Positions 54,445-55,518 of a DNA stretch of 64,000 bases are shown piece by piece. Origin of the DNA: Magnetovibrio blakemorei. Its GTDB lineage: Bacteria > Pseudomonadota > Alphaproteobacteria > Rhodospirillales > Magnetovibrionaceae. The notes under the pieces were generated by a model, which saw only the letters and a list, made by a program, of their open reading frames with translations, made no database searches and was not told the origin of the DNA. The translations under genes were made by a program, and so were the position numbers. The stretch's first letter is position 1. Each line of letters opens with the position of its first letter. Where the stretch lies: positions 1-64,000 of the forward strand of contig NZ_MCGG01000013.1 of the NCBI RefSeq assembly GCF_001746755.1, in the 5' to 3' direction.

Positions 54445-55518
54445 ATGTCAGATCCCCTTTATTCTTATGAGATATATGACAACTTGCCCATGCAAATAGC
54501 GATATTGGATCGTCAAGGTCTGATCGAATATACGAACAGTGCTTGGCATGCATTTGCCATCGAAAACGGCTATCAGGGGGGGATGTTCAAGGGAACCAAT
54601 TACGCTGAATTGTGCCTGAACGTTGAAGGCGTCGAAAAAGATCAAGCCAAAAGCTTCGCAGTGGGGCTTAAAGAGGTTTTAGCGGGTCTCACGAACAAGT
54701 TCGAACAGGTTTAACCTTGTCATGCACCAGACTGCCAACGATGGTTTAAAGGGATTGCTTCTCAAAAAGGTCCCAACGTTTTGGTCATGCATGTGGACAT
54801 CACCGATCAGTATGAAGAGTACAACAGCTTATCTATGATGTTGAATCGGGTGCAAACCATTCATGATTTGCGCACGCCCCTGACGGCGATTTTGGGTTTT
54901 GCCGAACTCGGTCAGACTTTAAAAGCAGATAAACTCGACGTTCTACACACGTATTTCAGTCACATTCACAGCTCAGGTCTGCGCCTGTTGGAATTGGTCA
55001 ACGGTATTTTAGAAACGGCACGTGGCGAAGCGAAGGCGGAACCACTTGCAGAGCAAAACATTGCACTTGAGCCATTCTTACGCTCCATCATCAATGAGAC
55101 GTCCGCCTTGGCGCAACATGCCGGAGTTGACGTGCAGCTTCAGGTTCCTCAGGACTTGAACATGATCGGTCACGAAATGGGAATGTGGCAGGTGTTTTCC
55201 AACCTCATCGGCAATGCAATCAAATTCAATCGCAAAGGTGGACTCGTTCGGGTTGAAGGTGTCTTGAATGGTGCCAACGGGATCGAAATTCGTATGATTG
55301 ACACCGGTTACGGAATTTCCACGGAGCGAGTGGCGGAAATTTTTAAGCCGTTTTATCGCGTTCTCGACGAAGACCAAGAGGTGCAGGAAGGCACAGGTCT
55401 TGGGCTGGCAATTTGCAAGGATATTGTACTCCGTCACGAAGGTCAGTTGACCGTGGACAGCACACTCGGAGAAGGCAGCATTTTCACCGTATCCTTGCCC
55501 AGCTGGCGCACCGCCTGA
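54445..55518 (+). pseudogene. PAS sensor histidine kinase interrupted by an in-frame TAA
   Basis: Two open pieces (54445-54711 and 54715-55518) lie in the same frame with a single TAA codon at 54712-54714. Together they make a 357-residue protein: PAS-like domain (1-110), H-box VQTIHDLRTPLTAIL (about 130-145), then HATPase with NLIGNAIKFN, DTGYGIS and GTGLGLAI. At the stop, the conserved order FEQV-?-PCHAPDCQRWF strongly suggests a Tyr codon was changed to TAA by one base (TAT or TAC to TAA). It could be a nonsense mutation, a strain-specific pseudogene, or a read-through site. The ATG 54445 has AGAGGA ten bases upstream. Confidence 0.85.

Follow-up and report, generated by a model that had tools for sequence, protein, structure and literature searches.

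The histidine kinase gene at positions 54445–55518 of the window (the whole 64,000-nucleotide stretch of Magnetovibrio blakemorei DNA that was analysed) is, in our judgement, likely an ordinary nonsense pseudogene, a soluble sensor kinase recently inactivated when a nonsense mutation turned one conserved tyrosine codon into a stop. Translation of the frame from the ATG at 54445 to the TGA at 55516–55518 gives 89 codons, a TAA and then 267 codons (MSDPLYSYE...NKFEQV-stop-PCHAPDCQRWF...SWRTA-stop). The TAA, at codon 90, is the sole internal stop in 54445–55518. As the original prediction held, the parts on either side of it are in the same frame with no base missing, and a frameshift in place of a nonsense change is thereby ruled out. 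The open run past the TAA is more than chance would give: all 267 codons are open, the run matches HisKA and HATPase_c, and an orthologue in a congener (G005) is unbroken there. The locus is laid out as follows.

54297–54328, plus strand: strong intrinsic terminator separating pntB from the kinase gene (a stem of 14 pairs with a loop of 4 bases, and a T tail).
54429–54437, plus strand: Shine-Dalgarno-like AGAGGA before the ATG at 54445 (duplex energy -6.0).
54445–54714, plus strand: N-terminal part (89 codons and the TAA), the first portion of a probable PAS domain, cut inside its third beta strand (translation; fold model).
54712–54714, plus strand: in-frame TAA at codon 90, Tyr in relatives (translation; alignment).
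54715–55518, plus strand: remainder of the frame, with the end of the PAS domain, HisKA with H140, and HATPase_c with the N, G1 and G2 boxes kept (Pfam; alignment).
54781–54789, plus strand: nearest in-frame candidate restart codons past the stop, TTG 54781 and ATG 54787, with a weak Shine-Dalgarno sequence.

The strong terminator after pntB probably makes the kinase gene a transcription unit of its own. The Shine-Dalgarno duplex energy at its ATG is fair, similar to those of pntB (-5.6) and def (-5.9).

The G005 orthologue (L010 1474–2553) lies directly after pntB and before a gene of the type found at 56267 in the window. It is one unbroken 359-codon frame, 49–51% identical to the broken gene in the N-terminal part and 46% in the C-terminal part, with Tyr at the column of the stop; where the orthologue reads YELVYPCHSKTTKRWFKGIA (YELVYPCHS around this column), the broken gene reads FEQV-stop-PCHAPDCQRWFKGIA. 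What the stop interrupts is thus a continuous frame in the orthologues. Tyr also stands at this column in 10 of the 10 other alignment rows (nine distinct proteins, the G005 protein having been entered twice), in agreement with the earlier claim that a Tyr codon was changed to TAA. In a wider set of weaker PAS matches, the column was mostly Tyr, with Phe in two (L011, L013) and no residue at this column in two kinases. An order-wide search of 297 genomes gave a strong match in 10, and only the Magnetovibrio blakemorei genome had an internal stop. The original prediction had also considered that relatives might carry two separate genes at this point; no split was seen in any homologue found, and two genes as the normal state were accordingly rejected. 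A scan of a contig collection for the kinase gene returned only distant kinases, mostly from other phyla, and a search of a plasmid collection returned no match.

The part behind the stop matches HisKA (PF00512, 9.4e-12), with H140 invariant in the alignment, and HATPase_c (PF02518, 2.9e-25). The N, G1 and G2 boxes of the latter are present, with N253, N257, D286, G288, G290 and G318–G320 kept; the alignment thus bears out the earlier statement that the ATP-binding motifs and the rest of the gene look intact. Alone, the 89-residue N-terminal part gave a weak PAS_4 match (0.072) below the Pfam cut-off, and the G005 orthologue a PAS_8 match (6.8e-4) just under it. The frame with the TAA read as Tyr was modelled with AlphaFold2 from 11 aligned sequences (mean pLDDT 79). 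Strands were placed at 17–21, 26–30, 85–94, 97–108 and 111–118, with helices between the second and third, a PAS-type order of elements in which the three last strands precede the long HisKA helices. LOV/PAS-kinase structures were matched, the best PDB matches being kinases, including LOV-kinase chimeras. The predicted product is hence a HisKA-HATPase_c histidine kinase with a probable PAS domain, seen in the order of elements in the model and below the cut-off by sequence. Codon 90 sits in the third strand of the model, so a product ending there would be missing the greater part of the PAS sheet and all of the kinase.

The part behind the stop appears to be without visible decay. Second-codon-position differences from the G005 orthologue numbered 29/87 before the stop and 85/266 after it, equal divergence on this measure, and relative-rate tests with two outgroups were not significant (chi-square ≤ 3.0). 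With every kinase motif retained and equal divergence on both sides, these comparisons favour a young stop and a recent loss.

What counts against a pseudogene is that the downstream kinase part is fully open with its motifs kept, something that a sequencing error or a functional restart would also explain. Translation restarting at TTG 54781 or ATG 54787, 66 and 72 bases past the stop and in frame, would give a PAS-less, possibly constitutively active kinase of ~245 residues with complete HisKA and HATPase_c domains, and other HisKA matches in the genome do sit in short frames of 232–247 codons. However, the Shine-Dalgarno energy of the restart site (-3.4) is at chance level (random-site mean -3.36), no homologue found is split at the stop position, and we regard a restart as unlikely. 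That both products are used, the short PAS fragment together with a restarted PAS-less kinase signalling without its sensor domain, seems to us very improbable. A base-calling or assembly error, with the gene intact in the real strain, would need only one base, and it would agree with the lack of any other lesion in the gene and of excess divergence in the downstream part. Nothing speaks directly against such an error. Third-position GC is 0.52–0.55 in the kinase gene versus 0.65–0.79 in five neighbouring genes, unlike the G005 orthologue, whose 0.65 is near that of its own neighbours (0.62–0.74). This lowered value may reflect relaxed selection, a weak hint and not proof, and we hold an error to be decidedly unlikely.

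Of the two outcomes first proposed, recent loss or read-through, the former is favoured by the intact motifs and equal divergence described above, and the latter found no support. Read-through of the stop, basal or programmed, would restore the full-length kinase and would account for a frame that is open and conserved past the stop. But no tRNA with a TTA anticodon (ochre suppressor) was present among the 43 found, which argues against suppressor-tRNA read-through. Just upstream, pntB also has TAA as its normal stop, and stops are absent from all other kinase matches of the genome. Neither of the marks of a recoded gene, a suppressor tRNA or a stop common to relatives, was thus seen; with the stop in no homologue found, there is no conserved recoding site, and we consider read-through the most improbable of these explanations. 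Returning to the nonsense pseudogene, we infer a real, fixed stop and expect that no functional kinase would be made.

We compared five congeners, one of which (G001) is only 67% complete and uninformative. The kinase gene was not found after pntB in G002, G003 and G004, nor did these three genomes contain any genome-wide match to it at E ≤ 1e-45. In the pntB tree, (G002,G005),(G003,(G000,G004)) with 99–100% support, the two carriers, G005 and Magnetovibrio blakemorei (G000), are not sisters, which makes repeated loss of an ancestral gene the simplest reading. On this phylogenetic pattern the kinase gene was probably lost repeatedly and is dispensable; gene transfer is a possible alternative. 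The genome holds 77 HisKA matches in all, ~75 besides the broken kinase gene, so the loss of one is plausible, and its effect was presumably near-neutral.

Several neighbouring and other kinase loci were also noted. A ccdA/ccdB-type toxin-antitoxin pair (CcdA 7.6e-25, CcdB 2.5e-29, Pfam) occupies 55692–56236 of the window, separating the broken kinase gene from the gene at 56267. No CcdA or CcdB match was found in the corresponding interval of G005, where the two genes adjoin. After pntB, G002 carries a different kinase-like gene (L042 3576–4382), 26% identical and with an HEVGNPLN motif, behind the 56267-type gene. A frame in G005 (L039 2448–2804) matches the C-terminal part of this G002 gene, joined directly to only its first N-terminal residues, as if the middle had been deleted. 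Elsewhere in the Magnetovibrio blakemorei genome there is a second broken histidine kinase gene on the minus strand (L102 1100–1660; G000:C48, about 12399–12959). Its HisKA is split by ~420 bases with inverted ends (GGCAAGCCCCTAG ... CTAGGGGCTTGCC); this insert, the only copy in the genome, is probably an insertion sequence remnant. A 134-residue frame (L103 1094–1498, G000:C18) contains HisKA, ends without HATPase_c, and adjoins ATP synthase subunit b-like genes.

Inactivation of a dispensable gene by a stop is commonplace in bacterial genomes. Here the ancestral state would have been a soluble PAS-HisKA-HATPase_c sensor histidine kinase, and its recent inactivation would be due to one nonsense mutation in the third PAS strand, at the codon for the conserved Tyr. 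Translation from the ATG at 54445 would then yield only 89 residues, a PAS fragment with neither most of the beta sheet nor the kinase. Other congeners lack the gene, which shows that the genus can do without it, and this would be why the loss was tolerated. The locus would thus be a small, clean example of the loss of a sensor kinase from a kinase-rich genome, soon after the inactivating change, with wider consequence only if the downstream part proves to be expressed.

The G005 orthologue resembles the broken gene in its place after pntB, its domain order, 46–51% identity and the YPCHxxxxxRWFKGIA motif common to both; it differs in having Tyr for the TAA, in being unbroken and in lacking a ccdAB pair before the next gene. 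Truncating mutations are a common route of gene inactivation in bacteria, as stated in a passage of one report (PMC9241588). Like nonsense-mutation pseudogenes of bacterial sensor kinases, the present gene has one premature stop, is otherwise intact and has many paralogues in its genome.
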